Of a DNA stretch of 64,000 nt, positions 20,569-42,855 are shown piece after piece; position 1 is the first letter of the stretch, and each line of letters opens with the position of its first letter. Made by a program: the position numbers and the translations under genes. Location of the stretch: the NCBI RefSeq assembly GCF_008704655.1, contig NZ_CP023688.1, positions 496,001 through 560,000 on the forward strand, in the 5' to 3' direction. This DNA is from Streptomyces rimosus. Lineage in GTDB: Bacteria > Actinomycetota > Actinomycetes > Streptomycetales > Streptomycetaceae. The notes below the pieces were generated by a model. It ran no database searches. It was not told the origin of the DNA and saw only the letters and a program-made list of their open reading frames with translations.

Positions 20569-21540
20569 TCAGCTCTTCTTCGTCAGCGCCTTCTCGACGT
20601 CCGTGAGAACCGCCTGCGCGGCGAGCGGGCCGCCCGAGCTGTTCCACGCGGAGCCGTCGATCACCACGACGTGATGCTTCTCGACGGCCTTGAGCTTGGT
20701 GAAGTTCGGTACGGCGGTGGCCTCCTCAAGAGCCTTGTCGCCCGCGGCACGGTCGCCGAGCGCGCCGATGAAGAGCCAGTCGCCGTCGATGGTGTCCAGG
20801 CGCTCCAGGCTCACCGGTTCGCTGTGGCCGGAGCTCTCGCCCTGCTGCCCCTGGGGCCGCTTGAGGCCGAGGGCGGCGAGGGTGTCGCCGACGTGTCCCT
20901 TGCCCTTGCCGACGATCGAGGGCGCGCCGTTCTGCCAGCGGATGACGCTGGTGACCGCTCCGGCGTTGGGCCCGAGGCCGTCCTTCACGGTCTTCAGGCG
21001 GCTGTCGAAGGAGGTGAGCCACTTCGCGCCGTCCGCCTTCCTGCCGAGGGCGTCGGCGGTCGCGGTGAAGGCGTCCCGCCAGGGGGCGTTCAGTTTGGCG
21101 GTGAGCACGGTGGGGGCGATGCGGCGGAGCTTGTCCTGTACGCGCTTGGCGCCCACCGTCTCGTCGAGCAGGATCAAATCCGGCCGCAGGGCGGCGAGCT
21201 TGTCCAGGTCGGGTTCGGCGGTGTTGGCGACGATCTCGGCGGACCCGGCCTTGGGGGCGAGGTAGCCGGAGACGCCGGACTGGCCGCGGCCGCTGGTGGC
21301 GCCGATCGGCCGGGTGCCGAGAGCGAGCGCGGCGTCGAGGGTGGGCTCGCTGAGCGTGACCACTTTCTGGGGGGCGGCGGGCACCTTCACCTTCTCGCCG
21401 TTGGCGTCGGTGACGGTACGGGTGCCGGAGCCGCCCGCCTTGCCGTCGGCGCCGTCCTTGCCGCCGTCCCCGCAGCCGGCGAGGGTCAGGGCGCCGGCGA
21501 GGGCGACGGCGAGCAGGGCGGCGGGTCGGCGGTAACGCAT
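20569..21540 (-). CDS. Siderophore-binding lipoprotein (FepB/FhuD-like)
   Basis: A 323-residue ABC substrate-binding protein. It has a lipoprotein signal with lipobox LAGC (Cys near residue 23), then a Gly/Lys-rich linker and the TroA/FepB-type fold (TVTDANGEKVKVPAAPQKVV, LRPDLILLDE). It should present a ferric siderophore to a FecCD permease. It is the last gene of the leftward glycosyltransferase-esterase-lipoprotein operon, 36 bp after the esterase stop, and so under the 24196 iron box. A paralogue lies at 47221-48198. Confidence 0.9.
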   Translation of the reverse strand: MRYRRPAALLAVALAGALTLAGCGDGGKDGADGKAGGSGTRTVTDANGEKVKVPAAPQKVVTLSEPTLDAALALGTRPIGATSGRGQSGVSGYLAPKAGSAEIVANTAEPDLDKLAALRPDLILLDETVGAKRVQDKLRRIAPTVLTAKLNAPWRDAFTATADALGRKADGAKWLTSFDSRLKTVKDGLGPNAGAVTSVIRWQNGAPSIVGKGKGHVGDTLAALGLKRPQGQQGESSGHSEPVSLERLDTIDGDWLFIGALGDRAAGDKALEEATAVPNFTKLKAVEKHHVVVIDGSAWNSSGGPLAAQAVLTDVEKALTKKS

Positions 21541-21576
21541 CGGTGGTGCTCCTTGGGGGTGCGGGAGGGGTGTGGG

Positions 21577-22914
21577 TCAGGAAGGTCTGACAGGAGAAGG
21601 GGGGTCGCTGGGTGGGGCTTCCGGTCCGAGCAGGGCGATCAGGCCCTGGGCCAGGGCGATGGTCCAGCAGGCATAGTCGTGCCCGCCGTTGAAGTCGGCG
21701 CCGGTGACGGTGTGGCCGCCGGCGCGGAGCGTGTGGCGCAGGTCACGGGTTTGTTCGAGCATGCCCCACTCGTGGAGCCCCACGTCCAGGTGCAGCCGTA
21801 GCGCACGCGGCGCCCCCTCGGCGTAGCGGCGGGTGATCCACGCCGTCTCCCCGGCCTGCTCGCCCGGCGGGTGCCACCACAGGGAGGCGGACTGGGCCAG
21901 GACGTTGCCGAAGCGGTGCGGCGCCGCGTACCCGGCGTACAGGGCGGTGAGCCCGCCGAGGCTCTGTCCCGCGACGACCGTGCGCGCCGGGTCCGTAGCG
22001 ACCGGCAGGTGCCCGGCGGCCCAGGGCAGCAGCTCCCCGGCGAGGAAGTCGACGTACGCGGGACGGCCGCCGAACTCCCGGGCGCGGGTGGCGTTGTCGA
22101 CCGCGTGCGGGGCGAGCACCGTCAGCGGCGGGACCGTGCCGTCGGACATCAGGCCGTCGAGGATGTCTTCCAGGTGCAGCTGGCCGAACCACATGTCGCC
22201 GTCGAGGAGGACGAGGGTGTGCCCGTCGGCGCGCCCCGTTCGCGGCGCGGCCGGCTCGTACGTCCACACCTCGCGGTCCCCGCCGAGCGCCGCGCTGGGC
22301 ACCTGATGGCGCCGGACCGTACCGCGCGGCATGCCGGGTCGCGGGGGGTCGGGCCAGGGGCGGGCGGGAGCGTGCGGGAGCTCGAAGACGGAGCCGGGCG
22401 GGCCGTGCCAGCGGGTGGCGATGGTGTGCGGGTTGAGGGGGTCGCGGACGCCGGTGGCGGCCAGCCGGTCGAGGCCGCCGGGTGGCCGCCCCCCGGTGTC
22501 GGGGGCGATGCGGTACGAGCCGCGGTGGTCGGTGCGCAGGCGGTAGGTCAGGTGCCACACGTCCGTACCGGGCAGGTGCCGCATCAGGCTCGTGGTGAGG
22601 TCCGTACGGTCCATCAGCCGGTTGACCAGCACAAGCACCTGGCGGGTCGCGGGGTCGCCGCGCCACAGGAAGGTGACGGCGCGGTGCTCGGGGTCGCCGT
22701 CGAGCGGTTCGACCAGCGGGGTGCCGGTGGCCGCCGTCTCGGCCCAGAACCGGGCCAGTTCGGCGGCGTGCGCGCGGGGCGAGCCGGCCTCGGCCAGCTC
22801 GGCGGCCAGACGGGTCAGGCGCGGGCTCTCCGCGGTCTCGGCCGGGTGGGGTCGGGGCGTGCGGGGCGGGGTGGCCGGGAGGGCGGTGGGGGCGCTGCTG
22901 TTCGTACGGGTCAT
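21577..22914 (-). CDS. Enterochelin esterase-like hydrolase (Fes/IroD type)
   Basis: A 445-residue cytoplasmic esterase of the Fes/IroD family, which opens the trilactone of ferric catecholate siderophores to free iron. The N-terminal domain (residues about 45-200) carries FLWRGDPATRQVLVLVNRL and MRHLPGTDVWHLTYRLR. The catalytic domain has VLLDGDMWFGQ, the nucleophile elbow GQSLGGLTA (Ser near 317) and a C-terminal GGHDYACW with the His. Its ATG overlaps the glycosyltransferase stop (TGATG), so translation is coupled. A second, separately controlled copy is at 38128-39405. Confidence 0.9.
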   Translation of the reverse strand: MTRTNSSAPTALPATPPRTPRPHPAETAESPRLTRLAAELAEAGSPRAHAAELARFWAETAATGTPLVEPLDGDPEHRAVTFLWRGDPATRQVLVLVNRLMDRTDLTTSLMRHLPGTDVWHLTYRLRTDHRGSYRIAPDTGGRPPGGLDRLAATGVRDPLNPHTIATRWHGPPGSVFELPHAPARPWPDPPRPGMPRGTVRRHQVPSAALGGDREVWTYEPAAPRTGRADGHTLVLLDGDMWFGQLHLEDILDGLMSDGTVPPLTVLAPHAVDNATRAREFGGRPAYVDFLAGELLPWAAGHLPVATDPARTVVAGQSLGGLTALYAGYAAPHRFGNVLAQSASLWWHPPGEQAGETAWITRRYAEGAPRALRLHLDVGLHEWGMLEQTRDLRHTLRAGGHTVTGADFNGGHDYACWTIALAQGLIALLGPEAPPSDPPSPVRPS

Positions 22915-24074
22915 CAGGTCGCTCCGTGCGCCGACGCCAGTTCCACCAGCCGGTGCACCATGTCCGCCGGGCTGGGCATGGCGGCCATCTCCTCGGCCGT
23001 CTCGCGGGCGGCCGTGGCCAGCGCCTCGTCCTCCAGGAGCCGCCGGACCAGCTCGCGTCCGGGACGGTCGGGGCCAGCGAGGGCGGACGGGTCCGGCGGG
23101 ACCAGGCCGCAGCCGCGTGCCCGGACCGCCGCCGCGTTGGCCGGCCGGTCGGCGCCCTCACCGAGGACGAGCTGCGGCAGGCCGGAGTCCAGGGCGGTGA
23201 GGGTGGTGCCGGCGCCGCCGTGGTGGATGGTGGCGTCGCTGCCGGCGAGCAGCGCGCCGAGCGGTGTCCACTCCACGGGGCGTACGTTCTCGGGCAGCGG
23301 GCCGAGCCCGGAAAGGTCGGCGCCGCCGAGCGCGAGCACGAATTCGGCGTCGGTGACACGCGCGGCGTCGATGACCCACTCGATGGGCGAGACACCGTCC
23401 ACGACCGGGCGGACGGTGCCGAGGGTGACCGCGATCCGGGGGCGTTCGCGCTTGCCGAAGAGCCAGTGGGGCAGGTCGCCGCCGCCGTTGTACGGCACGT
23501 AGCGCAGGTAGCGGCGGTGCGGCTCGCCGGTGACGCTCATGCCGGGCGGGGTCACGTCGAGCCAGGCGGCGATCGGCCCGGGCCCGGCCAGGCCGTGGCG
23601 GGCGTACCCGTCGGCGAGGGCGTCGTTCATCATCGCGACGTGCCGGCCGGTGTGGCCGAAGCCGACCGCGTGCAGGACCGAGGGGATGCCGAGCGCGGCG
23701 GCCACGAGCTGGCCGGCCACGCCGTTGGGGGTGTGCACGACGAGGTGGGGCCGCCAGCTGCGGGCGATGCCGGTCATGGTGTCGGCCATCTCGTCGCTGA
23801 AGAAGGAGAATCCCTTCCCCTTGGGCGGGGCGTTCTTCTCCCCCGGGGACGGCGGCTTGCCCTGCCGGCCCTTCTCCATGGCGGCGTACAGGGCGTCGGG
23901 GTCGATGCCGGGCGCGCAGTCGACGGCGGGGAGTCCGGCCGCGGCGGCGTGGCCGACGGCCCGTCCGCAGGTGGCGACGAGGACCTCGTGGCCCGCGGCG
24001 CGGAACGCCTGGGCCAGCGGCACCATCGGGTAGAGCAGCCCGAAGAAGGGCGGCCCGGCGAACAGGACACGCAT
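22914..24074 (-). CDS. IroB-like GT1 glycosyltransferase
   Basis: A 386-residue GT-B glycosyltransferase. ATG 24074 is preferred over TTG 24080 because it gives the family start MRVLFAGPPFFGLLYPMVPL. Further segments recall enterobactin C-glucosyltransferase IroB from memory: FSFFSDEMADTM, WLDVTPPGMS, RYVPYNGGG and the donor-site HHGGAGTTLTALDSGLPQLV. IroB-type enzymes attach a sugar to catechol carbons; other GT1 enzymes of this branch make C- or O-glycosides of polyketides. It is first in the iron-box operon with an esterase and a siderophore lipoprotein, and divergent from an IroC-like exporter with rmlABDC. I infer that it glycosylates a catecholate siderophore, probably with a deoxyhexose. 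Donor and acceptor are not proven. Confidence 0.85.
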   Translation of the reverse strand: MRVLFAGPPFFGLLYPMVPLAQAFRAAGHEVLVATCGRAVGHAAAAGLPAVDCAPGIDPDALYAAMEKGRQGKPPSPGEKNAPPKGKGFSFFSDEMADTMTGIARSWRPHLVVHTPNGVAGQLVAAALGIPSVLHAVGFGHTGRHVAMMNDALADGYARHGLAGPGPIAAWLDVTPPGMSVTGEPHRRYLRYVPYNGGGDLPHWLFGKRERPRIAVTLGTVRPVVDGVSPIEWVIDAARVTDAEFVLALGGADLSGLGPLPENVRPVEWTPLGALLAGSDATIHHGGAGTTLTALDSGLPQLVLGEGADRPANAAAVRARGCGLVPPDPSALAGPDRPGRELVRRLLEDEALATAARETAEEMAAMPSPADMVHRLVELASAHGAT

Positions 24075-24195
24075 CGACAACCTGCTTTCCTCCCCGACGG
24101 GCCGTCAGGCGGCGTACGGGGTACGGGTGGCGCGGCTAGGTGGCGCGGAGCGGCGGGTGTGGGCCAGGTCACACATCCGAGGTGGCAACCCGCAC

Positions 24196-24214
24196 TAAGG
24201 TGAGCCTAAGCTAA
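24196..24214. promoter_or_regulatory. Iron box (DmdR/IdeR type) between glycosyltransferase and ABC exporter
   Basis: TAAGGTGAGCCTAAGCTAA matches the DmdR1/IdeR 19-bp iron box (TTAGGTGAGCCTAACCTAA) at 17 positions. It lies 120 bp upstream of the glycosyltransferase and four bases before the exporter GTG. A -10-like TAAGCT (24207-24212) lies inside the box, exactly six bases before that GTG, with no ribosome site. This fits a leaderless promoter blocked directly by the iron repressor. Confidence 0.85.
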
Positions 24215-24218
24215 CCAC

Positions 24219-27200
24219 GTGCTCAGCAGATCAACAACGTCCCCCGGCTGGCTGCGCAGGCTCGGTGCCGCGTGCCGCCACCACCCGCGACTCCTCCTCG
24301 CCGTCGCCGTGAGCTCCGTGTGCGGCACGGGACTTGAGGCGGTCGGCCCCCTGCTGGCCCGGCTCGGCGTCGACGACGCCGTGGCCGGGCACACCGGCCG
24401 CATCGGCTGGCTGGCCGCCGCCATGGCGGGACTGGCCCTGGTCCAGTTCGGTGCCGAGTTCACCCGCCGGTACGCCGCCGGAAAGCTCGCCCTCGGCGTC
24501 CAGCACCGGCTGCGCACCGAGGTGTTCGACTCCCTCCAGCGCCTGGACGGCGTCAAACAGGACGCGCTGCGCACCGGCCAGGTGGTCTCCCGCGCCAACA
24601 GCGATCTGACGCAGGTGCAGATCATGCTCGGGATGCTGCCGATCCCGCTGGGCACCTCGGCCCTCTTCCTCGTCGCCGTCGGCGCGATGCTGTGGCTGTG
24701 CGCCCCGCTCGCCCTGGTCGCGCTGACTGTGGTGCCCGCCACCGCGTGGGCCGCCGCCCGCAGCCGGGCCCGGCTGGTCCCCGCCACCCGCGAGGCGCAG
24801 GCGGGTGCGGCGCGCCTCGCCGAGCAGGTCGAGGAGGCTGTCACCGGCGTCCGGGTGGTCAAGGGCTTCGGCCAGGAGGACCGCGAGGTCGGCAGGCTGG
24901 CCCGCGCGGCCCGCGGACTGTTCGGGCGGCGGATGCGGGTGGCCCGTATCCAGGCCGGCGCCACCGCCACACTCGCGGCGCTGCCCGCGCTCGGCCAGGT
25001 CGGTGTCCTCGCCTTCGGCGGCTGGCTGGCACTGCGCGGCACGATCGGCCCCGGCACCTTCCTCGCCTTCGCCGCCTACCTGGCGCTGCTGGCCGGACCG
25101 GCCCGGCTGTTCGCGAGCTTCCTGGTCACCGCCCAGCAGGCCCGTGCCGCCGCCGAGCGGGTATACGAACTCATCGACGCCCGGCCCGACATCACCGAAC
25201 CGGCCGCCCCGGTCGCCCTGCCCGCCGGACCGGTCGGTCTGGAACTGCGCGGCGTACGCTTCGGGTACGCGCCGAGCGACCCGGTGCTCGACGGCCTGTC
25301 CCTGGCCGTCCGGCCCGGCGAGACGCTGGCCCTGGTCGGCCCGTCGGGCTCCGGCAAGTCCACCGTCTCGCTGCTCCTCCCCCGCTTCTACGACCCGCAG
25401 GACGGCTCCGTGCGCGTCGGCCCGCCCGGAGCGGCCGTCGACGTGCGCGACCTGTCGCTCGCGGAACTCCGCTCCACCCTCGGCGTGGTCTTCGAAGAGC
25501 CCTTCCTGTTCTCCTGTTCGGTCCGCGACAACATCGCCTACGGACGGCCGGACGCCACCGACGCGCAGGTCAGGGCGGCTGCCGAGGCCGCCGAGGCGCA
25601 CGAGTTCATCGAGGCGCTGCCGGACGGCTACGCCACCGCGGTCGGCGAGCGCGGCCTGACCCTGTCCGGCGGGCAGCGGCAGCGCGTGGTGCTGGCCCGT
25701 GCCCTGCTGGCCGACCCGCGGGTGCTGGTCCTGGACGACGCGACCTCCGCCGTGGACGCCGGTACGGAGGCCGCCATCCACCGCACCCTGCGCGCCGTCA
25801 CCGGTGACCGTACGACCCTGCTGATCGCACACCGCCGCTCCACCCTCCAGCTCGCCGACCGCATCGCCGTCCTGGACGAGGGCCGCGTGGTGGACACCGG
25901 CACCCAGGAAGAGCTGACCGCGCGCTGCCCGCTGTTCCGCGAGCTGCTGGCCGGGCCCGGCGACTCCCTCGACGTACGGGTCACCGCCGCCCCGGACACC
26001 ACCGGCCGGGGCGTCACCCCGGAGCTGTGGCCGGAACCCCCGGCCGGTGCCGCCCCGGACGCCGCGGCGGACGAGACCGCCGAGGACCCGCGCCTGGACG
26101 AGGCCCGGCTGCGCGCCCCCGACCCCGACGCCCGCTTCCGGCGGCTGCTCGCCCCGGTCCGCGCCGCGCTGCTGCTGGGCCTGCTGCTCGTCGTCGCCGA
26201 CTCCCTCGCCTCCCTCGCGCTGCCGCTGCTCGTCCAGCACGGCCTGGACGCCGGGGTCGGTGCGGGCGACGGCGCCGTGCTCGCCGCCACCGTCCTGATC
26301 GCGCTGCTCGTCGTCGCGGCCGGCTGGGGCGTGCTCACCTTCCAGGCGCGCGTCACCCGGCGGGCCGGGGAACGGGTGCTGTACGGGCTGCGGGTGAAAA
26401 CCTTCGCCCATCTCCAGCGACTCGGGCTCGACTTCTACGAGCGGGAACGCGGCGGCCAGATCATGACCGCCATGGTCAACGACATCGACGCGCTCTCCGC
26501 CTTCCTCCAGACCCATCTGCTGACGTCCGTCGCCGCCCTGGCCACGCTGTGCGGCGCCGTCGTGGCGATGCTCGCCGTCGACCTGCCGCTGGCCCTGACC
26601 GCGCTCGCCCTGGTCCCGCTGATCGCCGTGGCCACCGCCGTCTTCTGGCGGCTGTCCTGCGCCGCGTACACCGACGCGCGCCGGCGCATCGGCGAGGTCA
26701 ACTCCAGCCTCCAGGAGAACGTCTCGGGGCTGCGCGTCGCCCAGGCACAGACCCGCGAGGGCGAGACGGCCGAGGCGTTCGGCAAGCTCTCCGAGAACTA
26801 CCGCACCGCCCGGCTGCGGGCCCAGCGCTACGCCGCCGTGTACTTCCCGTGCGTCAACCTCACCGCCGAACTCGCCAAGGCCGCGGTGCTGCTGGCCGGT
26901 GCCCACCGGGTCGCGGACGGCGGCCTCAGCCCCGGTGTCCTGGTCGCCTTCACGCTGTTCCTCGGCATGTTCTTCTCGCCCATCCAACAGCTGTCGCTCG
27001 CCTTCGACAGCTATCAGCAGGCGTCGGTCGGCCTGCGCCGCACCCTCGCCCTGCTGCGCATGACGCCTTCCGTACGGCCCGCCGCCGAGCCGGAGCCCGT
27101 ACCGGACCGGCTGCGCGGCGCGATCGAGCTGTGCGAGGTCACCCACCGCTACCCCGGCGCCGAGCGGCCCTCGCTGGACCGGGTGAGCCTGCGGGCCGAG

Positions 27201-27872
27201 CCCGGCGAGACGGTCGCGCTGGTCGGCGCGACCGGGGCCGGCAAGTCCACCGTCGTCAAGCTCCTCGCCCGCTTCTACGACGCCACCGAGGGCCGCGTCC
27301 TGGTCGACGGCACGGACGTGCGCGCCTACGACCCGCCCGCCTACCGGCAGCGGCTCGGCGTCGTCCCCCAAGAAGCCCACCTGTTCACCGGCGACATCGC
27401 CGACAACGTCCGCTACGGCCGCCCGGAGGCCACCGACCGGGAGGTCGAGGAGGCCGTACGGGCGGTGGGCGCGCTGCCCGCGGTGGCCGCCCAGCCGTAC
27501 GGCTTCCGCCAGCCCGTCGGCGAGCGCGGGCAGCACCTGTCGGCCGGACAGCGCCAGCTGATCGCGCTGGCCCGCGCCCACCTCGTGGACCCCGGGCTGC
27601 TGCTGCTCGACGAGGCCACCGCCGCCCTCGACCCGGCCACCGAACGCGCGGTGCTCGACGCCGGGGACCGCCTGGCCACCGGCCGCACCACCGTCCTGGT
27701 CGCGCACCGGCTGGCCACCGCGGCGCGGGCCGACCGGATCGTCGTCCTGGACGGCGGGCGGATCGCCGAGGAAGGCACCCACCAGCAGCTCCTCGCCGCC
27801 GACGGCCTGTACGCCCGGCTGTGGCAGCACCACTCGTCCGCCGAACCCGCGCCCCTCACCCCCCAAGGATGA
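24219..27872 (+). CDS. Double-length ABC exporter of IroC architecture
   Basis: A 1217-residue exporter with the order TMD-NBD-TMD-NBD in one chain, the length and layout of IroC, the salmochelin exporter. NBD1: Walker A GPSGSGKS near residue 375, signature LSGGQRQR near 482, Walker B VLVLDDATSAVD. NBD2: Walker A GATGAGKS near 1005, signature LSAGQRQL, Walker B LLLLDEATAALD. NBD1 has Asp where the catalytic Glu is expected while NBD2 keeps DE, so ATP hydrolysis is probably asymmetric. GTG 24219 directly follows the iron box and appears leaderless. It is the first gene of an operon with rmlABDC and two permeases. Likely role: secretion of the glycosylated siderophore. Confidence 0.88.
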   Translation: MLSRSTTSPGWLRRLGAACRHHPRLLLAVAVSSVCGTGLEAVGPLLARLGVDDAVAGHTGRIGWLAAAMAGLALVQFGAEFTRRYAAGKLALGVQHRLRTEVFDSLQRLDGVKQDALRTGQVVSRANSDLTQVQIMLGMLPIPLGTSALFLVAVGAMLWLCAPLALVALTVVPATAWAAARSRARLVPATREAQAGAARLAEQVEEAVTGVRVVKGFGQEDREVGRLARAARGLFGRRMRVARIQAGATATLAALPALGQVGVLAFGGWLALRGTIGPGTFLAFAAYLALLAGPARLFASFLVTAQQARAAAERVYELIDARPDITEPAAPVALPAGPVGLELRGVRFGYAPSDPVLDGLSLAVRPGETLALVGPSGSGKSTVSLLLPRFYDPQDGSVRVGPPGAAVDVRDLSLAELRSTLGVVFEEPFLFSCSVRDNIAYGRPDATDAQVRAAAEAAEAHEFIEALPDGYATAVGERGLTLSGGQRQRVVLARALLADPRVLVLDDATSAVDAGTEAAIHRTLRAVTGDRTTLLIAHRRSTLQLADRIAVLDEGRVVDTGTQEELTARCPLFRELLAGPGDSLDVRVTAAPDTTGRGVTPELWPEPPAGAAPDAAADETAEDPRLDEARLRAPDPDARFRRLLAPVRAALLLGLLLVVADSLASLALPLLVQHGLDAGVGAGDGAVLAATVLIALLVVAAGWGVLTFQARVTRRAGERVLYGLRVKTFAHLQRLGLDFYERERGGQIMTAMVNDIDALSAFLQTHLLTSVAALATLCGAVVAMLAVDLPLALTALALVPLIAVATAVFWRLSCAAYTDARRRIGEVNSSLQENVSGLRVAQAQTREGETAEAFGKLSENYRTARLRAQRYAAVYFPCVNLTAELAKAAVLLAGAHRVADGGLSPGVLVAFTLFLGMFFSPIQQLSLAFDSYQQASVGLRRTLALLRMTPSVRPAAEPEPVPDRLRGAIELCEVTHRYPGAERPSLDRVSLRAEPGETVALVGATGAGKSTVVKLLARFYDATEGRVLVDGTDVRAYDPPAYRQRLGVVPQEAHLFTGDIADNVRYGRPEATDREVEEAVRAVGALPAVAAQPYGFRQPVGERGQHLSAGQRQLIALARAHLVDPGLLLLDEATAALDPATERAVLDAGDRLATGRTTVLVAHRLATAARADRIVVLDGGRIAEEGTHQQLLAADGLYARLWQHHSSAEPAPLTPQG

Positions 27873-27879
27873 CCCGCTC

Positions 27880-28947
27880 ATGAAGGCACTTGTCCTCTCC
27901 GGAGGCACCGGCAGCAGACTGCGCCCCATCACCCACACCGCCGCGAAACAGCTCGTCCCCGTCGCCAACAAGCCGGTGCTCTTCTACGGCATCGAGTCCC
28001 TGGTCGCGGCCGGTGTCACCGACGTCGGCATCATCGTCGGGGACACCGCGGCGGAGATCCGCGCGGCCGTGGGCGACGGCTCCCGCTTCGGCGCGCGCGT
28101 CACCTACCTCCCCCAGGAACAGCCCCTCGGCCTCGCGCACGCCGTACTGATCGCCCGCGACTGGCTCGGCGACGACGACTTCGTGATGTACCTCGGCGAC
28201 AACTTCGTGGTCGGCGGCATCACCGAACTCGTCGAGGAATTCCGGCGCTCCCGCCCGGACGCGAGCATCCTGCTCACCAAGGTCGCCGATCCCAGCGCCT
28301 TCGGCGTCGCCGAACTCGGCCCCGAAGGAGGCGTGCTGCGCCTGGAGGAGAAGCCGCGCGAGCCGCGCAGCGACCTGGCCCTGGTCGGCGTCTACCTGTT
28401 CACGCCCGCCGTGCACGAGGCCGTACGGGCCATCAGGCCGTCAGCGCGCGGTGAACTGGAGATCACCGACGCCCTCCAGTGGCTGGTCGACGCCGGGCGC
28501 ACCGTGCGCTCCACCGTCATCTCCGGCTACTGGAAGGACACCGGCAACGTCACCGACATGCTGGAGGTCAACCGCACCGTGCTGGAGGCCCTGCCGCCGG
28601 CCGTCCTGGGCGAGGTGGACGGCGACAGCGAACTGGTCGGCCGGGTCCGTATCGAGGCCGGTGCCAGCGTCGTACGGTCCCGGATCGTCGGCCCCGCGGT
28701 GATCGGCGCGGGCAGCGTCGTGCGCGACTCCTACATCGGCCCCTCCACCTCCGTCGCCGACGGCTGTGTGATCAGCGGCAGCGAGGTGGAGTTCTCCATC
28801 GTCCTGGACGACTCGCGGATCGAGAACGCCGGCCGGATCGAGGGCTCGCTGATCGGCCGCATGGTCCGTATGAGCGGCGCCGCCCGCGCGCCCCGCGCGC
28901 ACCGCCTGGTGCTCGGCGACCACAGCCAGGTGCAGATAGCGCCCTGA
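27880..28947 (+). CDS. rmlA: Glucose-1-phosphate thymidylyltransferase (long, StrD type)
   Basis: A 355-residue nucleotidyltransferase that makes dTDP-glucose from dTTP and glucose-1-phosphate. Seen: GGTGSRLRPIT at residues 8-18, KQLVPVANKP, the metal-binding YLGDN near 106-110 and EEKPREPRSDLALVGVYLF. The C-terminal ~110 residues are a left-handed beta-helix (VIGAGSVVRDSYIGPSTSVA), typical of the long StrD-like form in antibiotic clusters and not of the ~290-residue housekeeping RmlA. It starts seven bases after the exporter stop with AAGGA in that gap, so it is co-transcribed with the exporter. Confidence 0.92.
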   Translation: MKALVLSGGTGSRLRPITHTAAKQLVPVANKPVLFYGIESLVAAGVTDVGIIVGDTAAEIRAAVGDGSRFGARVTYLPQEQPLGLAHAVLIARDWLGDDDFVMYLGDNFVVGGITELVEEFRRSRPDASILLTKVADPSAFGVAELGPEGGVLRLEEKPREPRSDLALVGVYLFTPAVHEAVRAIRPSARGELEITDALQWLVDAGRTVRSTVISGYWKDTGNVTDMLEVNRTVLEALPPAVLGEVDGDSELVGRVRIEAGASVVRSRIVGPAVIGAGSVVRDSYIGPSTSVADGCVISGSEVEFSIVLDDSRIENAGRIEGSLIGRMVRMSGAARAPRAHRLVLGDHSQVQIAP

Positions 28948-28999
28948 GGCCGCGTCCGCACCCCCCGCCCCCATTCGTTTCCCTTCTTGGACTGACGCC

Positions 29000-29998
29000 T
29001 TGAGAATTCTCGTCACCGGCGGAGCCGGCTTCATCGGCTCCCACTTCGTCCGCACCCTGCTCGGCCCCGACGCCTGCGAAGGCCCTGGCGGCGGGCCGTA
29101 CGTCACCGTCCTGGACGCGCTGACCTACGCGGGCAACCGCGCGAGCCTCGCCCCCGTGGAAGGCGACCCGCGGTTCTCCTTCGTCCACGGCGACATCCGC
29201 GACCGGCCGCTGGTGGACTCCCTGCTGGCCGGGCACGACGCGGTGGTTCACTTCGCCGCCGAGTCGCATGTGGACCGGTCCATCGCGGGCGGCACCGAGT
29301 TCGCCGCCACCAACGTCCTGGGCACGCAGGTCCTGCTGGAGTCCGCCGTACAGCACCGCATCGCCCGCTTCGTGCACGTCTCCACCGACGAGGTGTACGG
29401 CTCGATCGCGGAAGGCTCCTGGACCGAGGACGAGTCGCTGGCCCCCAACTCGCCGTACGCCGCCTCCAAGGCCGGATCCGACCTCCTCGCGCTGGCCCAT
29501 CACCGTACGCACGGCCTGGACCTGTCGGTGACCCGCTGCTCCAACAACTACGGCCCCTACCAGCACCCCGAGAAGGTCATCCCACTGTTCACCACCCGGC
29601 TGCTGACGGGCGGGCGCGTCCCGCTGTACGGCGACGGGCTGCACGTCCGCGACTGGCTGCACGTCGACGACCACTGCCGGGCGCTGCGCCTGGTCCTGGA
29701 AGGCGGCCGGCCGGGCGAGGTCTACAACATCGGCGGTGGCACCGAACTGAGCAACAGGGAACTCACCGAACGGCTGCTGGCCGCCTGCGGCGCCGGCTGG
29801 GACCGGGTCGAGCACGTCACCGACCGCAAGGGCCACGACCGGCGCTACTCGGTGGACTGGACGAAGATCCGTACCGAGCTGGGCTATGAGCCGCGGCACT
29901 CCTTCGAGGACGGGCTCGCCGAAACCGTCGCCTGGTACCGCGACCACGCCGACTGGTGGGCCACCGCGGCTCCCGCCCTGGGAGGTGCCGCCCGGTGA
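29000..29998 (+). CDS. rmlB: dTDP-glucose 4,6-dehydratase
   Basis: A 332-residue extended SDR, second step of the dTDP-sugar pathway. Seen: NAD site GGAGFIGS at residues 7-14, HFAAESHVDRSI, VSTDEVYGSI and the catalytic SPYAASKAGSD (Tyr-x3-Lys), then RCSNNYGPYQHPEKVIPLF, all standard for RmlB. The start is TTG 29000. Its TGA overlaps the next gene's GTG. Together with rmlA, rmlD and rmlC it completes a StrDELM-like set. Confidence 0.93.
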   Translation: MRILVTGGAGFIGSHFVRTLLGPDACEGPGGGPYVTVLDALTYAGNRASLAPVEGDPRFSFVHGDIRDRPLVDSLLAGHDAVVHFAAESHVDRSIAGGTEFAATNVLGTQVLLESAVQHRIARFVHVSTDEVYGSIAEGSWTEDESLAPNSPYAASKAGSDLLALAHHRTHGLDLSVTRCSNNYGPYQHPEKVIPLFTTRLLTGGRVPLYGDGLHVRDWLHVDDHCRALRLVLEGGRPGEVYNIGGGTELSNRELTERLLAACGAGWDRVEHVTDRKGHDRRYSVDWTKIRTELGYEPRHSFEDGLAETVAWYRDHADWWATAAPALGGAAR

Positions 29999-30882
29999 AC
30001 CGCTGGCTGATCACCGGCGCGAGCGGGATGCTCGGCCGCGAGGTGTGCCGTCTGCTGACCGCCGAGGGCGAGTGCGCGCTCCCGCTGGACCGCCGGTCCC
30101 TGGACCTGACCGACACCCGTGCCGTGGAGTTCACCCTGCGGCGGGCCCGGCCGACCGTCGTCGTCAACTGCGCCGCGTACACGGACGTGGACGCGGCCGA
30201 GACCCACGAGCAGCAGGCGTGGCGCGTCAACGCCGACGCGGTGCGCGGCCTGGCCCTGGCCTGCGCCCGCCGCGGCGTCCGGCTGCTGCACGTCTCCACC
30301 GACTACGTCTTCGCGGGCGACGCCACCACCCCGTACGCGGAGGACGCGCCGACCGGCCCGCGCACCGCGTACGGCCGCAGCAAGCTGGCCGGCGAGCGCG
30401 CCGTGCTGACCGCGCTGCCGCACACCGGGACCGTCGTGCGCACCGCCTGGCTGTACGGCGCGCACGGCCGCAACTTCGTACGGACCATGGCCGAGCGCGC
30501 GCTGCGGGACGCCACCGTGCAGGTCGTCAACGACCAGACGGGGCAGCCCACTCCGGCCCGTGACGTGGCCGAGCGGCTGCTCGCCCTGGGGCGCGGGCCC
30601 GCCCGCCCCGGCGTTTTCCACGCCACCGTCGGCGGGCTGACCACCTGGTACGACCTGGCGCGCGACGTGTACCGGCTGGCGGGCTCCGACCCGGACCGCG
30701 TCCACCCCACCGGCAGCGCCGCCCTGGACCGCCCCGCCCGCCGCCCCGCCTGGAGCGTGCTGGGCCACGACCGCTGGGCCGCCGCCGGGCTGCCCGCGCC
30801 CCGCCACTGGCGCGTCGCGCTCGCCGACGAGTTCGCCGCGGTGACCGCGACGCTGGAAGGAGCCATATCGTGCGCCCGCTGA
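29995..30882 (+). CDS. rmlD: dTDP-4-dehydrorhamnose reductase
   Basis: A 295-residue SDR performing the last, NAD(P)H-dependent step to dTDP-L-rhamnose. Seen: GASGMLGREVC near residues 8-18, NCAAYTDVDAAE, VSTDYVFAGD, and TAYGRSKLAGER with the catalytic Tyr-x3-Lys. The GTG start overlaps the rmlB stop (GTGA at 29995-29998), and the end overlaps rmlC by 13 bases, so the operon is tightly coupled. A reductase of other 4-ketohexoses is the alternative reading. Confidence 0.9.
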   Translation: MNRWLITGASGMLGREVCRLLTAEGECALPLDRRSLDLTDTRAVEFTLRRARPTVVVNCAAYTDVDAAETHEQQAWRVNADAVRGLALACARRGVRLLHVSTDYVFAGDATTPYAEDAPTGPRTAYGRSKLAGERAVLTALPHTGTVVRTAWLYGAHGRNFVRTMAERALRDATVQVVNDQTGQPTPARDVAERLLALGRGPARPGVFHATVGGLTTWYDLARDVYRLAGSDPDRVHPTGSAALDRPARRPAWSVLGHDRWAAAGLPAPRHWRVALADEFAAVTATLEGAISCAR

Positions 30883-31472
30883 GCATCGAGGGAGCCTGGG
30901 TCAGGGAAGCACTCGTCCACCGGGACGACCGGGGCTCCTTCCACGAGTGGTTCACGCGGCCGGAGTTCACCGGCGCGACCGGCCTCGCCCCGGTGCTGGC
31001 GCAGGCCAACTGTTCCGTGTCGCGCCGCGGTGTGCTGCGCGGCGTGCACTTCAGCGAGGTGCCGCCCGGTCAGGCCAAGTACGTCACCTGTGTACGCGGC
31101 GCCGTGCTGGACGTGGTGGTGGACCTGCGGACCGGCTCCCCCACCTACCGCGCGTGGGAGGCCGTACCGCTGGACGAGGACGGGTCGGGCGCTGTGTACC
31201 TCTCCGAAGGGCTCGGGCACGCCTTCATGGCCCTGACCGACGACGCCACCGTGGTCTACCTGTGCTCCACCGGCTACCAGCCGCACCGCGAGCACGGCAT
31301 CCACCCGCTGGACCCGGACCTGGGCATCGACTGGCCGGCCGGTGCCGACCCGGTGCTGTCCGCGAAGGACGCCGCCGCGCCCACCCTGGCGGAGGCCGAG
31401 CGGCTGGGGCTGCTGCCCTCGTACGAGGAGTGCGTGCGCCACCGGGCCGTCCGGGAAGGCAGCGCCGCGTGA
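30870..31472 (+). CDS. rmlC: dTDP-4-dehydrorhamnose 3,5-epimerase
   Basis: A 200-residue cupin epimerase. Seen: the catalytic His in RRGVLRGVHFSE (near residue 60), VLDVVVDLRTGSPTYRAWEA, and LSEGLGHAFMAL, all as in RmlC/StrM. GTG 30870 follows GAAGGAG. With RmlA, B and D it should yield dTDP-L-rhamnose. A mono-3- or 5-epimerase cannot be told apart by eye. The stop overlaps the start of the first permease (GTGA at 31469-31472), placing sugar and iron-transport genes in one transcript. Confidence 0.9.
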   Translation: MRPLSIEGAWVREALVHRDDRGSFHEWFTRPEFTGATGLAPVLAQANCSVSRRGVLRGVHFSEVPPGQAKYVTCVRGAVLDVVVDLRTGSPTYRAWEAVPLDEDGSGAVYLSEGLGHAFMALTDDATVVYLCSTGYQPHREHGIHPLDPDLGIDWPAGADPVLSAKDAAAPTLAEAERLGLLPSYEECVRHRAVREGSAA

Positions 31473-32521
31473 CGACGACCGTGACCGCGCCGCGCGCCGC
31501 CCCGCCCGTCCCGGCCGCGCCGCCCGCCGGGCGCCGGGCGGTGCGGGCCGGCGGGCTGCTGCTGGGCCTGGCGCTGCTGGCCGCCGTGGTGCTGGCGAGC
31601 ATCGCCGTGGGCGCCAGGGCCATCCCGCTCGACCAGGTGTGGCACGGCCTGTTCGGGTGGACCGGCACCGCCGACGACCGGATCGTGCGGGAGCTGCGGC
31701 TGCCGCGTACGGCGCTGGGCGTCGCGGCGGGCGCCGCGCTCGGGCTGGCCGGCGCCGTGATGCAGACCCTCACCCGCAACCCGCTGGCCGACCCCGGGCT
31801 CCTGGGCGTGAACGCGGGCGCCTCGGCCGCCGTGGTCACCGCGATCAGCGTGCTGGGCGTGACCTCGTTCACCGGCTATCTGTGGTTCGCGCTGGCGGGC
31901 GCCGGGGTGGCGGCCGTCCTGGTCAACGCGCTCGGCGGCAGCCGCGCTGCCACCCCCGTACGCCTGGCCCTGGCGGGCACCGCCGTCAACGCCGCCCTCT
32001 TCGGCTATGTCAACGGGCTGCAACTGACGGACCTGGGCGCGCTGGAGACCATGCGGCACTGGTCCGTCGGCACGCTCGCGGGCCGCCGCGGCGACCTGCT
32101 GCCGGCCGCGCTGCCGTTCCTGCTCGCGGGCGCCGTCCTGGCACTGGCGGTGGCCCGCCCGCTGAACGCCATGGCCCTGGGCGAGGACACCGCCCGCTCC
32201 CTCGGCGCGCGGCTGGGCCGGACCCGGGTGCTGTCCATCGTCGCCATCACCCTGCTGTCCGGTGCCGCCACCGCCGTCTGCGGACCGATCGGCTTCGTCG
32301 GCCTGATGATCCCGCACGCGGTCCGGGCCTTCTGCGGCCCGGACACCCGGTGGCTGTTCCCGTACTGCGCCGTCTTCGCCCCGGTCCTGCTGCTCGGGTC
32401 CGACATCGTGGGCCGGGTGCTGGCCCCGCCGACCGAGATCGAGGTCGGGGTGGTCACCGCGTTCTGCGGCGGCCTGGTGTTCATCCATCTCGTCCGGCGG
32501 CGCAAGGTGGCCCAGCTGTGA
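31469..32521 (+). CDS. FecCD-family siderophore ABC permease
   Basis: A 350-residue polytopic permease of the BtuC/FecCD family. Seen: LRLPRTALGVAAGAALGLAG, RNPLADPGLLGVNAGASAAV, the ALGEDTARSLGARLG loop that docks with the ATPase, and GPIGFVGLMIPHAVRAFCGP. The N terminus is Pro/Ala-rich before the first helix. Start and stop both overlap neighbours (GTGA), tying it to rmlC and the next permease. The pair should form one heterodimeric importer, probably served by the 20569 lipoprotein. Confidence 0.92.
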   Translation: MTTTVTAPRAAPPVPAAPPAGRRAVRAGGLLLGLALLAAVVLASIAVGARAIPLDQVWHGLFGWTGTADDRIVRELRLPRTALGVAAGAALGLAGAVMQTLTRNPLADPGLLGVNAGASAAVVTAISVLGVTSFTGYLWFALAGAGVAAVLVNALGGSRAATPVRLALAGTAVNAALFGYVNGLQLTDLGALETMRHWSVGTLAGRRGDLLPAALPFLLAGAVLALAVARPLNAMALGEDTARSLGARLGRTRVLSIVAITLLSGAATAVCGPIGFVGLMIPHAVRAFCGPDTRWLFPYCAVFAPVLLLGSDIVGRVLAPPTEIEVGVVTAFCGGLVFIHLVRRRKVAQL

Positions 32522-33591
32522 ACGTCGTCCGTACCCCTGCCGTACGCCGTACCGCGCCACGCCCGACGGTGCTGCGCACCCACGGCGGGCTGTCCCTGCG
32601 ACTGGGCCGCCGCGCCCTGCTGGTCTGCGGGCTGCTGGCGCTGACCGGCGCCGTCGTGGCCGTCCTGTCCCTCGGCACGGGCAGCTACCACCTCGCCCCC
32701 GCCGAAGTCCTCGCCACCCTCTTCGGGGACGGCCCGCCCGGCGCCGACTTCGTCGTCACGGACCTGCGGCTGCCCCGGGTGCTGGACGGCCTGCTGGCCG
32801 GTTTCGCCATGGGCATGAGCGGCGCGGTCTTCCAGTCACTCGCCCGCAATCCGCTCGGCAGCCCCGACGTCATCGGCTTCGGCAGCGGCGCCTCGGCCGG
32901 TGCCCTGGTTTCCGTCATCCTCCTGGAGGCCGGCACCGCGCAGATCGCCCTCGGCGCGGTGCTCGGCGGCCTGGCCACCGCCGCCACGGTCTACCTGTTG
33001 GCCTGGCGGCGCGGGGTGCACGGCTACCGGCTGGTGCTCGTCGGCATCGGCGGCTCGGCGGTCCTCGGCTCGCTGACCAGCTATCTGTACGTACGGGCCG
33101 ACCTCGGCAAGGCCGCCGAGGCCGCCACCTGGATGATCGGCAGCCTCAACGGACGCGGCTGGTCCGACGTGAGCGTGGCCGCGCTCGGCGTCGCCGCCCT
33201 GGCACCCGCCGTACTGGCCCTGGCCCGCCGTCTCACCCTGCTGGAGATGGGCGACGACACGGCGGCGGCACTCGGCGTGGCCCCCGAACGCAGCCGCTTG
33301 GCCCTCCTCGCCACCGGCACCGGCCTGACGGCCCTGGCCGTCGCCGCCGCCGGCCCCATCCCCTTCGTGGCCCTCGCCGCCCCCCAACTGGCCCGCCGCC
33401 TCACCCGTTCCCCCGGCCCCAACGTCCTGCCCGCGGCGTGGATGGGCGCCGTCCTGGTCACCCTCGCCGACTGGACGGCCCAGCGCGTCTCCGGCACCGG
33501 CATCCTGCCGGTGGGCGTGATCACCGGGGTGGGCGGAGGGGCGTATCTGGCCTGGCTGCTGTTCCTGGAGCGAAGGTCGGGGAAGGTGTAG
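32518..33591 (+). CDS. FecCD-family siderophore ABC permease
   Basis: A 357-residue second subunit of the same importer. Seen: DLRLPRVLDGLLAGFAMGMS, ARNPLGSPDVIGFGSGASAG, EMGDDTAAALGVAPERSRL (coupling helix) and GPIPFVALAAPQLARRLTRS. It is the last gene of the exporter-sugar-permease operon. No FepC-type ATPase follows, which is unusual for this family and implies a shared ATPase encoded elsewhere. Confidence 0.92.
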   Translation: MNVVRTPAVRRTAPRPTVLRTHGGLSLRLGRRALLVCGLLALTGAVVAVLSLGTGSYHLAPAEVLATLFGDGPPGADFVVTDLRLPRVLDGLLAGFAMGMSGAVFQSLARNPLGSPDVIGFGSGASAGALVSVILLEAGTAQIALGAVLGGLATAATVYLLAWRRGVHGYRLVLVGIGGSAVLGSLTSYLYVRADLGKAAEAATWMIGSLNGRGWSDVSVAALGVAALAPAVLALARRLTLLEMGDDTAAALGVAPERSRLALLATGTGLTALAVAAAGPIPFVALAAPQLARRLTRSPGPNVLPAAWMGAVLVTLADWTAQRVSGTGILPVGVITGVGGGAYLAWLLFLERRSGKV

Positions 33592-38057: not shown

Positions 38058-38085
38058 GATAAGGTAAGGCTCGCCTTACCTTATC
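38058..38085. promoter_or_regulatory. Iron box palindrome before second siderophore esterase
   Basis: Perfect 13-bp inverted repeat GATAAGGTAAGGC / GCCTTACCTTATC with a 2-bp centre. Its core (38060-38078) matches the DmdR/IdeR box TTAGGTTAGGCTCACCTAA at 15 of 19 positions. It lies 42 bp upstream of the esterase ATG. Confidence 0.75.
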
Positions 38086-38127: not shown

Positions 38128-39405
38128 ATGACCGCAGCCGCCCCGCCCGCCGACACGCCGCGCCATCCTCCCCGGGTACCGCGGCCCTCCCCCGTGCCGC
38201 GTGTCACGGACGAGCGGGTGGTCCGCCGGGCGGGCGGGGCGGACTTCTGGCGGGCGGTGGAGCAGGAGGGCACGCCGCTGGTCGGGCCGGATCCGTGGGG
38301 CGCGGCGGACCACGCGCTGGTCACGTTTCTGTGGCGTGGCTCCGGAACCACCCGCGCGGTCCTGGTGTCGCCGAACAAGCTCGCCGATCCGCGCGATCCG
38401 GCGGGCAATCTCATGGACCGCGTTCCCGGCACGGACGTGTGGCACTGGTCCGTACGGATGCGCCGGGACTGGCACGCCACATACACGCTGTGTGTGGACG
38501 AGGGCGACGGTCCCGGCGCCGACGACGAGGCGTACTGGCCGTGGCTGCGTGCGCAGCGGCGCCTGGACCCGCTCAATCCGCATACCCTCGCGAGCCGTTG
38601 GGGCGGACCCCCGGCCTCCTGCGTCGCGCTGTCCGACGCGCCGCGCGGCGAGGAGTGGCGCGAGCGGCCGGGCGTCCCCCGCGGCAGCATCTCCGTGCAT
38701 ACAGTGCACAGCGCCCGGCTGGGCAACGCGCGCCGGGTGTGGCGATACGCGCCGCCGCGCGGTGCCGAACCGGGCGCCGAACTGCCCGTCCTCGTCCTCC
38801 TGGACGGAGAGATGTGGCAGCCGGGGCTCGGGGTGGCCACCCTGCTGGACAACCTCATCGCGGACGGCAGGATTGCGCCGCTGGTCGCGCTGCTGCCGGA
38901 GTCCCTGGGCGCGGACGCCCGCTGGGCCGAGATGACCTGCGATCCGCGGTTCGCCGGGTTCCTCGCGGACGAGCTGCTGCCGTGGGCCGCCGCGGACCTT
39001 CCGCTGGCCGCCGACCCGGCCCGTACCGTCGTGGCGGGCCAGAGCCTGGGCGGTCTGACCGCCGCGTACACCGCGGTGACCGCGCCCGGCCGGTTCGGCT
39101 GTGTCCTGGCGCAGTCCGGCTCCTTCTGGTGGCCGAACGGGCCCGGCGCCCAGTGGCTGACCGAGCGGATCGCCGCGTCCCCGCGGCTGCCGGTACGGTT
39201 CCGGCTCTCGGCGGGTGAGCAGGAGTGGGTCGCCCTGCCCGCGAACCGCCGGCTGCGCGACACCCTGGCGGCCAAGGGCTACGAGGACGCGGTCTACCGC
39301 GAGTACAACGGCGGCCACGACTACCTGTGCTGGCGTACGGAACTGGCCGACGGGCTGTGCGCGCTGCTCGGCCCGGGGGCGGCGGCGGGATCCGCCGACG
39401 GCTGA
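38128..39405 (+). CDS. Second enterochelin esterase-like hydrolase
   Basis: A 425-residue Fes/IroD-family esterase, paralogous to 21577-22914 and sharing its blocks: VTFLWRGSGTTRAVLV, MDRVPGTDVWHWSVRMR, VLLDGEMWQPG, the nucleophile GQSLGGLTA and GGHDYLCW. ATG 38128 has CGGAG upstream. It is controlled by its own iron box. Two such enzymes are expected when native and glycosylated, or cyclic and linear, siderophores need different hydrolysis. The last 85 bp overlap the 3' end of the convergent MFS gene. Confidence 0.9.
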   Translation: MTAAAPPADTPRHPPRVPRPSPVPRVTDERVVRRAGGADFWRAVEQEGTPLVGPDPWGAADHALVTFLWRGSGTTRAVLVSPNKLADPRDPAGNLMDRVPGTDVWHWSVRMRRDWHATYTLCVDEGDGPGADDEAYWPWLRAQRRLDPLNPHTLASRWGGPPASCVALSDAPRGEEWRERPGVPRGSISVHTVHSARLGNARRVWRYAPPRGAEPGAELPVLVLLDGEMWQPGLGVATLLDNLIADGRIAPLVALLPESLGADARWAEMTCDPRFAGFLADELLPWAAADLPLAADPARTVVAGQSLGGLTAAYTAVTAPGRFGCVLAQSGSFWWPNGPGAQWLTERIAASPRLPVRFRLSAGEQEWVALPANRRLRDTLAAKGYEDAVYREYNGGHDYLCWRTELADGLCALLGPGAAAGSADG

Positions 39406-40625
39406 CGGCGGCAGGACGGGGCCGCGTACAGCGCCCGTAGGTGGCGGACCAGAGCGACCGCGGCGAGTCCCGCCGCAAGCGCGCATACGCCCCACCACCC
39501 GGCCCCGCTCCAGACGCGCGCCCCGAACCAGGAACCCGCACTGCCGCCCAGGTAAGCGCAGGTCATATAGGCGGTGTTGAGCCTGCTGCGGGCGTCGGGG
39601 CGCAGGGCGTAGACCCGGGCCTGGTTGGCGACCATGCCGGATTGCATCGCGACGTCGAGGAGCAGCGTGCCGAGGACCAGCGCGGCCAGGCCCGGCGCGC
39701 CGCCGCGAGCGCCCGCGGCGAGGATCGCGGCCGAGACGGGGACGGCGGCCAGGCACACGGTGTTCACCGGATCGGGCCCGAAGCGGTCCACCAGGCGGCC
39801 CACGAGCGGAGTGCAGAACATGGTCGCCGCACCGACCAGGGCGAGCATGCCGACGGCCGGAGCGCCCAGCCGGTAGGCCGGACCGTCGAGGAGGAGCGCC
39901 AGACAGGTCCAGACGGCGGAGAATCCGGCGAAGACGGTCGCCTGGTACAGGCAGGAGCGGCGCAGCTGCGGCTCGGTGCGCAGCAGGCGCAGCGGTTCGG
40001 CCAGGAGCGCGGGGTAGGACTGCCGGGAGCCGGGAGCCGTCGCGGGCACCGCGAACGCCAGCACGGTGGCGAGGAGCAGGGCCACGGCCGCGGCCACCAG
40101 GTACGGGGCCCGCCAGCCCAGCCATTCGCCGAGCGTGCCGCTGAACGTACGGGCCAGCAGCATGCCGCCGGTGGATCCGCTCAGCAGGGTGCCGATCACC
40201 GCGCCCCGGCGGTCGGGGGCCACGAGACCGGCCGCCAGTGGGCCGACGACCTGAGCGGCCACCGTGGTCAGGCCGACCACGGCGCTGAGCGCGACAAGGG
40301 GTTGCAGGGCGGACGCGCAGCCCGCGGCCAGCAGGGCCAGTCCGGTGAGGGCGAGCAGGACGACGAGGAACGAGCGGTGCGCGAACCGGTCACCGAGGGG
40401 GACCAGCAGGACGATGCCGGCCGTGTATCCGATCTGTGTGGCGGTCACGGCCAGCGCGGCCGTGTCGGACGGCACGTGCAGCCCGTCCGCGAGGAGCGGG
40501 GTGACGGCCTGCGGGAAGTAGATGTTGCCCACGGCCACGGCGCAGGTGACGGCCAGGAGCAGGACCAGCCGGCGGCTCATCGGCGGGCCGCGGGGGTGCG
40601 GGGCTGCGTCATGGTTGTAGTTCAC
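39321..40625 (-). CDS. MFS transporter
   Basis: A 434-residue 12-helix major facilitator. Seen: PLGDRFAHRSFLVVLLALTG (A-motif region), GTLLSGSTGGMLLARTFSG (C-motif-like) and the second-half GRLVDRFGPD. The family is drug/arabinose-efflux-like. GTG 40625 is the longest start; ATG 40580 (MSRRLVLLL) is equally good. The last ~28 residues are a Ser/Pro-rich tail encoded antisense to the end of the esterase. Divergent from an ArsR-type regulator, which probably controls it. Siderophore export, as by EntS, is possible, but no iron box is seen here. Confidence 0.85.
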   Translation of the reverse strand: MNYNHDAAPHPRGPPMSRRLVLLLAVTCAVAVGNIYFPQAVTPLLADGLHVPSDTAALAVTATQIGYTAGIVLLVPLGDRFAHRSFLVVLLALTGLALLAAGCASALQPLVALSAVVGLTTVAAQVVGPLAAGLVAPDRRGAVIGTLLSGSTGGMLLARTFSGTLGEWLGWRAPYLVAAAVALLLATVLAFAVPATAPGSRQSYPALLAEPLRLLRTEPQLRRSCLYQATVFAGFSAVWTCLALLLDGPAYRLGAPAVGMLALVGAATMFCTPLVGRLVDRFGPDPVNTVCLAAVPVSAAILAAGARGGAPGLAALVLGTLLLDVAMQSGMVANQARVYALRPDARSRLNTAYMTCAYLGGSAGSWFGARVWSGAGWWGVCALAAGLAAVALVRHLRALYAAPSCRRQPSADPAAAPGPSSAHSPSASSVRQHR

Positions 40626-42765: not shown

Positions 42766-42836
42766 GGTCTGGACTCCTCCTGAAGAGGCAGGCGGGAGAG
42801 GGAAGTCGGAGGAGGATCCCCCGACGCGATCACAGG

Positions 42837-42855
42837 TTAGCTTAGCCTTACCTAA
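42837..42855. promoter_or_regulatory. Iron box before YncE-like gene
   Basis: TTAGCTTAGCCTTACCTAA fits the DmdR/IdeR box TTAGGTTAGGCTAACCTAA at 16 of 19 positions. It lies between the synthetase stop (42908) and the YncE-like start (42765), both leftward, so it gives the propeller gene its own iron-controlled promoter. Confidence 0.75.

Follow-up and report, generated by a model that had tools for sequence, protein, structure and literature searches.

Which sugar would an IroB-like glycosyltransferase (GT) attach to a catecholate siderophore if a complete pathway for another sugar nucleotide were encoded beside it? The question is raised by a locus of Streptomyces rimosus located in a stretch of 64,000 nucleotides (positions 496001-560000 of NZ_CP023688.1, here called the window) of a 9.36-Mb chromosome that forms a single contig. 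IroB takes its glucose from uridine diphosphate (UDP)-glucose and links it to the catechol via carbon, and to our knowledge glucose, in the salmochelins, is the only sugar known from an enterobactin-type siderophore. In the window, a GT of a sister clade of IroB stands divergently to an operon with rmlA, rmlB, rmlD and rmlC, the genes for deoxythymidine diphosphate (dTDP)-L-rhamnose. Judged from sequence, the locus probably encodes an iron-repressed, salmochelin-like pathway with dTDP-L-rhamnose as the donor and rhamnosylated enterobactin as the product (probability of roughly 0.7). The original prediction, a catecholate decorated with a 6-deoxyhexose, is supported at the gene level by the sister position of the GT and by the conservation of rmlABDC within the operon (12 of 14 assessable relatives).

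Profile searches of the window proteins recovered all genes named in that prediction, in frame and in the given order, i.e., leftward the IroB-like GT, a Fes/IroD-like esterase and a Peripla_BP_2 siderophore-binding protein, and rightward an exporter of IroC architecture, rmlA-B-D-C and two FecCD permeases (Table 1). An ATG stands at residue 3 of the GT frame, and the gene therefore probably spans 22914-24074. The rightward genes overlap or nearly abut as claimed, the gaps from exporter to permease 2 being 7, 52, -4, -13, 68 and -4 bases with the rmlD and permease 1 starts taken from an S. rimosus plasmid annotated by NCBI. A single iron box serves both divergent operons; its placement between them was correct, with the small amendment that four bases separate it from the GTG start of the exporter gene. 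The exporter shares 37-38% identity with IroC over 86-87% of the length (among the best 25 of 3584 matches) and the esterase 32% with IroD over 83% (among the best 12 of 905 matches). The earlier coordinates were right for these genes, but the siderophore region runs further, to about 50583, and includes a second esterase, a major facilitator superfamily (MFS) transporter, an EntF-type nonribosomal peptide synthetase (NRPS), a free-standing carrier protein and a second uptake set.

The dTDP-L-rhamnose pathway is complete, with RmlA, RmlB, RmlC and RmlD all present and intact. RmlA, RmlB and RmlD pass the NCBI equivalog cut-offs, and RmlD matches solved dTDP-4-dehydrorhamnose reductases. The operon copy of rmlC is the sole PF00908 match in the genome, in which rmlB occurs twice. 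A role of the rml genes in the sugar of a polyene or another antibiotic was rejected, no such genes being among those annotated around the operon; a second rmlA/rmlB pair lies at 2.67 Mb. In that region (2.66-2.68 Mb), homologues of rmlA and rmlB, and no rmlC, accompany another GT of the family, which is 42-43% identical to that of the window.

Cassettes with a GT of the same clade as the window enzyme (the R clade, hence R-type) were found in 15 other Streptomyces genomes, by a contig scan that reached close relatives only (12 loci) and by a genus search, with two genomes in both. In the genus search, six of 295 genomes, this one included, had a GT of at least 74% identity, and the next best match dropped to 51%. 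Operons with complete rmlABDC were present at loci L010-L015, L017, L019, L020, L058, L059 and L060; L016, which is cut by a contig end, was omitted from this count. The gene order is kept in the relatives, and chance proximity of rml and siderophore genes was rejected on this ground. All 15 relatives retain an iron box in the GT-exporter interval, with at most three mismatches, and in 14 of the 15 the Peripla_BP_2 gene adjoins the esterase gene. Four stops flagged by the alignments fall where the aligned genes end. The exception for the binding protein is L018 of S. fulvoviolaceus, whose operon has an eroded appearance. It still has the genes for GT, exporter and esterase as well as rmlA, and rmlB, rmlD, rmlC, the permeases and the binding protein were not found at the locus. 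Among 394 genomes of the class, no R-type GT was found in other genera; the matches besides this genome were the Streptomyces genome G206 (51%) and two genomes of other families (43-44%).

Two Streptomyces cassettes, L056 (genome G152) and L057 (G206), carry a GT of the IroB clade together with homologues of the binding protein, permeases, exporter and esterase, and a search of both loci found no rml genes. The contrast drawn originally, that salmochelin-type loci have no sugar genes, hence holds even inside Streptomyces. G206, rated 100% complete, lacks rmlC altogether, and the single rmlC of G152 lies away from the cassette. The scanned interval of L056 is devoid of an iron box (9 mismatches); exporter and GT are co-directional there, so the interval is not a divergent one. 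In L057, the GT matches from residue 108 onward only and the exporter in two pieces, and both genes look frame-shifted, by sequencing error or decay; this GT was kept as is, its N half counting for nothing.

In a tree of 68 GT rows, the R clade comprises 28 rows, mostly from Streptomyces (fork 95/94), and the IroB clade 21 rows (100/100), i.e., enterobacterial IroB, Rothia, Brevibacterium, unnamed rows and the two Streptomyces loci. A fork of 100/98 unites the two clades, with three Flindersiella-type rows and the other GTs outside; the tree is midpoint-rooted, and the term sister holds if the root falls among the other GTs. One long row, P0029, branches off first on the R side (88/50), and P0033 and P0070, named enterobactin C-glucosyltransferase by their source, lie outside both clades. 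The window GT belongs to the IroB family as a member of this sister clade, outside the IroB clade proper, with 47-51% identity to IroB versus 70-89% to its nearest 24 database relatives. Its closest solved relatives, PDB 9ke1 (242 bits) and 9ke2 (239 bits), were both deposited as rhamnosyltransferases; no paper behind these entries was found in the openly licensed literature.

The two halves of the enzyme, which in the GT-B fold we take to be the acceptor side (N) and the donor side (C), differ in their affinities. Identities were calculated with a split at residue 205 for 13 R, 12 IroB-clade and 12 other, mostly actinomycete, rows of a 40-row alignment. The R rows are closer to the IroB clade than to other GTs in the N half (48.9% versus 41.2%) and closer to other GTs than to the IroB clade in the C half (53.9% versus 45.5%), while the IroB clade shares 36.4% (N) and 38.0% (C) with the other GTs; the Flindersiella-type rows, counted apart, have 53.6% (N) and 60.5% (C) identity to R. 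Positions common to R and IroB and rare elsewhere number 23, of which 16 are in the N half, including those of the FSFFS.DE and GFxHTxxH stretches. At 31 positions, R and IroB are each fixed for a different letter. At the 21 in the N half, the majority of the other GTs has the R letter in eight cases and the IroB letter in three; at the ten in the C half, the figures are eight and zero. One of these ten is T292 in the HHGGAGT stretch of R, which is N in IroB. The rml-less cassettes L056 and L057 have the IroB letters at positions 207, 219, 232, 274, 292 and 306, and none of these letters occurs at the six positions in the eight R rows compared, L018 and L021 among them; one other GT, P0083, also has S219. 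In the sequences compared, the C-half signature follows the presence of rml genes, and the half-wise pattern would fit a common acceptor and different donors for R and IroB.

An enterobactin scaffold is indicated by the assembly line. The original prediction of a catecholate had named no synthetase, and the window does contain one, 19 kb from the cassette and beside it in some relatives. The NRPS has the domain order of EntF, and the motifs FDVSVW, HFVPS, VFCSGE and NLYGPTEAAVD, read from the alignment, are identical to those of EntF and correspond to what we take to be a serine code; its thioesterase has GWSVGG. An EntF orthologue (66-95% identity, next best at most 52%) is present in all 17 cassette genomes to which this count refers, 15 R-type and two IroB-clade, the match being partial in G297, G301 and G304. 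The motif strings are identical in 16 of the 17, with two letters changed in L096. In eight genomes (G036, G048, G298, G299, G300, G302, G304 and G206) it lies on the contig of the GT, within 20 kb. The order in G206 is esterase, GT, exporter, permeases, binding protein, entA, entC, entE, entB, carrier, EntF, second esterase and YncE-type protein. Furthermore, L013 and L017 have entE and entC next to their rml-type cassettes, and L021 has entA next to its R-type cassette.

In S. rimosus, the NRPS and the free-standing carrier protein that precedes it in the window are complemented by the genes for 2,3-dihydroxybenzoate (DHB) at 2.27 Mb, i.e., entA (the sole match of the genome over the family cut-off), entC, entB (isochorismatase domain alone found), entE and a second carrier. 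Among the 295 Streptomyces genomes, entA was found in 113, including each of the six with an R-type cassette, and in one of the two with IroB-clade cassettes (G206 and not G152, the latter assembled in 1040 contigs). The DHB cluster has an NRPS frame of its own (2571 amino acids, two matches to the window NRPS) with a second code that we take to be of the threonine type, and S. rimosus therefore probably produces two catecholates that draw on a single DHB supply. This second cluster (2.26-2.29 Mb), presumably griseobactin-like, holds carrier, entB, entE, entC, entA, an esterase and the NRPS, as well as a FecCD pair fused in one frame.

Under the proposed mechanism, the EntF-type NRPS would make enterobactin upon iron starvation, with DHB activated in trans, and RmlABDC would supply dTDP-L-rhamnose. 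The GT would move rhamnose onto one or more catechol rings, probably with the C-linkage made by IroB, and the IroC-type pump would export the glycoside. Binding protein and permeases would return the ferric form, whose trilactone would be opened by the esterase to free the iron. Products with one, two and three rhamnoses would have an [M+H]+ of 816.21, 962.27 and 1108.33, respectively (enterobactin, 670.15), and their linearised forms would be heavier by 18.01.

Several observations weigh against rhamnosylated enterobactin as the product. Two R-type operons lack rmlABDC, L018 keeping rmlA alone and L021 none, with rmlA, B, D and C lying close together elsewhere in both genomes (L073, L074). 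RmlC scores 148.2 bits with the NCBIfam model, just below the cut-off of 155.75, and finding rmlC in a genome counts for little, since 249 of the 295 Streptomyces genomes have one; its presence as a diagnostic was rejected for the same reason. Seven of the 23 positions shared with IroB sit in the C half. The IroB clade is on a long branch (0.96), which could lower its identity to R without any change of donor. A domain swap in the GT was considered and rejected: trees of the two halves, from which P0033, P0088 and P0113 were omitted, agree in splitting R plus IroB from the rest (91/95 and 99/92) and give no sign of a swapped domain. Finally, the main text of the study on enterobactin from S. 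varsoviensis (PMC10188961) reports no glycoside.

In a rival reading, the rml genes would be bystanders that serve envelope glycans or another product, with the GT using UDP-glucose like IroB and making an ordinary salmochelin. The wide distribution of rmlC and the two operons devoid of rmlABDC speak for such a reading, as does the GEGADRP stretch common to the window GT and IroB, and a housekeeping role could have moved into the operon, whose rmlC is the only one of the genome. However, rmlABDC is located between siderophore exporter and permeases in those 12 of 14 relatives, and five of the 12 genomes hold another rmlC elsewhere, so that the rmlC of the operon cannot simply be taken for the housekeeping gene. 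Moreover, the C half of the GT leaves IroB at conserved positions where the rml-less cassettes agree with it, and we regard a bystander role as unlikely.

The acceptor and the sugar might also differ from those proposed. That the GT rhamnosylates another catecholate, e.g., the one made by the dimodular NRPS cluster at 2.27 Mb, would be in line with the complete DHB set, the only entA above the cut-off and the threonine-type code of the second adenylation domain there. It is nevertheless very unlikely given the universal EntF orthologue in the cassette genomes, eight times within 20 kb, the contiguity of cassette and enterobactin-type genes in the IroB-clade case G206 and the IroB-like N half of the GT. 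For a different 6-deoxyhexose, derived from an Rml intermediate, one may refer to the solved relatives of RmlC: the best match bears the deposited name of a 3,5-epimerase, and behind it follows a putative 3-epimerase from a D-allose pathway. RmlC, however, has GHAF and REHGIHPLDPDLGI, similar to the 3,5-epimerase (GHSF, REHGVHPLDPDLGI) and different from the putative 3-epimerase (GRAF, REHSVNPLDPDLGI). Together with the equivalog-level scores of RmlA, B and D and the finding that profile searches matched no further gene of the operon to a sugar-tailoring family, this makes another deoxysugar highly improbable.

The remaining features of the window are listed in Table 1 with those discussed above. 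Between two groups of siderophore genes, a small protein (34963-35529) corresponds to a gene annotated as S-adenosylmethionine-dependent methyltransferase on a plasmid of S. rimosus R6-500; it may be set beside the methyl esters of linear enterobactin from S. varsoviensis. This linear plasmid, pSRP1.2 (NZ_CP138631.1, 197,878 bp), carries the GT (99.7%), the exporter (99.9%), rml genes, permeases and a MobF relaxase. An enterochelin esterase is in place that matches the second esterase of the window, and past the GT only a hypothetical protein of 128 amino acids is annotated where the first esterase and the binding protein would be expected.

Table 1. Predicted siderophore genes and iron boxes in the window (ABC, ATP-binding cassette; TM, transmembrane domain; NBD, nucleotide-binding domain; C-A-PCP-TE, condensation, adenylation, peptidyl carrier and thioesterase domains)
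Feature	Position	Strand	Evidence
Siderophore-binding protein (Peripla_BP_2)	20569..21540	-	1.9e-21
Predicted Fes/IroD-type trilactone esterase	21577..22914	-	NCBIfam PRK10439, 247.8 bits (cut-off 222)
IroB-sister GT, predicted enterobactin rhamnosyltransferase	22914..24080	-	EryCIII-like N 6.6e-31, C 7.3e-38
Predicted divergent DmdR/IdeR-type iron box	24196..24214		3 mismatches to consensus
IroC-architecture ABC exporter, TM-NBD-TM-NBD	24219..27872	+	One chain, two ABC_membrane and two ABC_tran
rmlA, glucose-1-phosphate thymidylyltransferase	27880..28947	+	TIGR01208, 450 bits (cut-off 320)
rmlB, dTDP-glucose 4,6-dehydratase	29000..29998	+	TIGR01181, 426 bits (cut-off 365)
rmlD, dTDP-4-dehydrorhamnose reductase	29995..30882	+	TIGR01214, 285 bits (cut-off 224); start from plasmid annotation
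rmlC, dTDP-4-dehydrorhamnose 3,5-epimerase	30870..31472	+	Pfam PF00908, 197 bits (cut-off 27)
FecCD permease 1	31541..32521	+	Start from plasmid annotation
FecCD permease 2	32518..33591	+	Family match
Predicted weaker iron box, upstream of second esterase	38060..38083		5 mismatches
Second enterochelin esterase	38128..39405	+	PRK10439, 289 bits (cut-off 222)
MFS transporter, candidate exporter	39321..40625	-	Family match
YncE-type beta-propeller protein	41677..42765	-	72% homologue adjoins EntF in L079
Predicted iron box, upstream of YncE-type gene	42832..42855		2 mismatches
EntF-type NRPS, C-A-PCP-TE	42908..46897	-	E. coli EntF, 6e-268, full-length alignment
Free-standing carrier protein, predicted aryl carrier for DHB	46867..47097	-	68% to carrier in 2.27-Mb DHB cluster
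Second siderophore-binding protein	47221..48267	-	Family match
Predicted divergent iron box, NRPS operon/permeases 3 and 4	48323..48341		1 mismatch
FecCD permeases 3 and 4	48341..50583	+	Family match

The four iron boxes, predicted by a scan against what we take to be the DmdR/IdeR consensus, all lie beside siderophore genes, and 20 mononucleotide shuffles of the window contained no box with four or fewer mismatches.

With respect to known systems, the locus resembles salmochelin iroBCDEN in its IroB-sister GT, an exporter of IroC architecture and an IroD/Fes-type esterase that both adjoin the GT, iron control and an enterobactin-type scaffold. Unlike the salmochelin iroA locus, which has no sugar-nucleotide genes, the exporter operon of the window holds complete rmlABDC; the C half of the GT is unlike IroB, and the Gram-positive host has ABC importer genes where iroA has an outer-membrane receptor. 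Judged by its genes, the system would work like salmochelin but departs from it in one defining feature, the lack of sugar genes in the locus, and we regard it as a variant rather than a member. The IroB-clade cassettes of G152 and G206 (L056, L057, L079) share GT, exporter, two permeases, binding protein, esterase and EntF orthologue with the window; they differ by having no rml genes and a C half with IroB letters, and G206 further lacks any rmlC. In E. coli, according to PMC2637984, salmochelin needs iroB, and the mass shift fits two glucoses plus hydrolysis.

The closest chemical evidence comes from S. varsoviensis, whose ethyl-acetate extracts from rich medium contained enterobactin and linear methyl esters (PMC10188961). 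The genome of this species, linked to that paper at species level, has an EntF-type orthologue (74%) and, as in the window, a GT/rml-type operon (L012). For the ens cluster, the main text of the paper names methyltransferases as well as genes whose function is unknown, but neither a GT nor rml genes, both of which the window has; glycosylation comes up for salmochelin and microcin only. The S. varsoviensis products support the enterobactin scaffold and speak against abundant glycosylation in cultures of that kind. Glycosides, being polar, may have remained in the water phase, which is perhaps why any rhamnosylated forms have been overlooked so far. Among the matches listed in the openly licensed literature, where subscription journals are mostly missing, no title or opening of an abstract described such a rhamnose-bearing or glycosylated siderophore.

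A full dTDP-rhamnose pathway under an iron box, with the sole rmlC of the genome, is unusual in itself. If the proposed pathway is true, enterobactin with 146-Da units is to be expected among the secreted products of S. rimosus and S. varsoviensis. On balance, we lean towards the view that Streptomyces has two kinds of enterobactin-glycosylating system, one with IroB and glucose and no sugar genes, and a sister kind dedicated to dTDP-L-rhamnose that makes a deoxysugar catecholate, and that IroB arose from an actinomycete deoxysugar GT whose donor half was re-tooled for UDP-glucose. Sister GTs with different predicted donors would then reveal both the basis of sugar choice and the origin of IroB.

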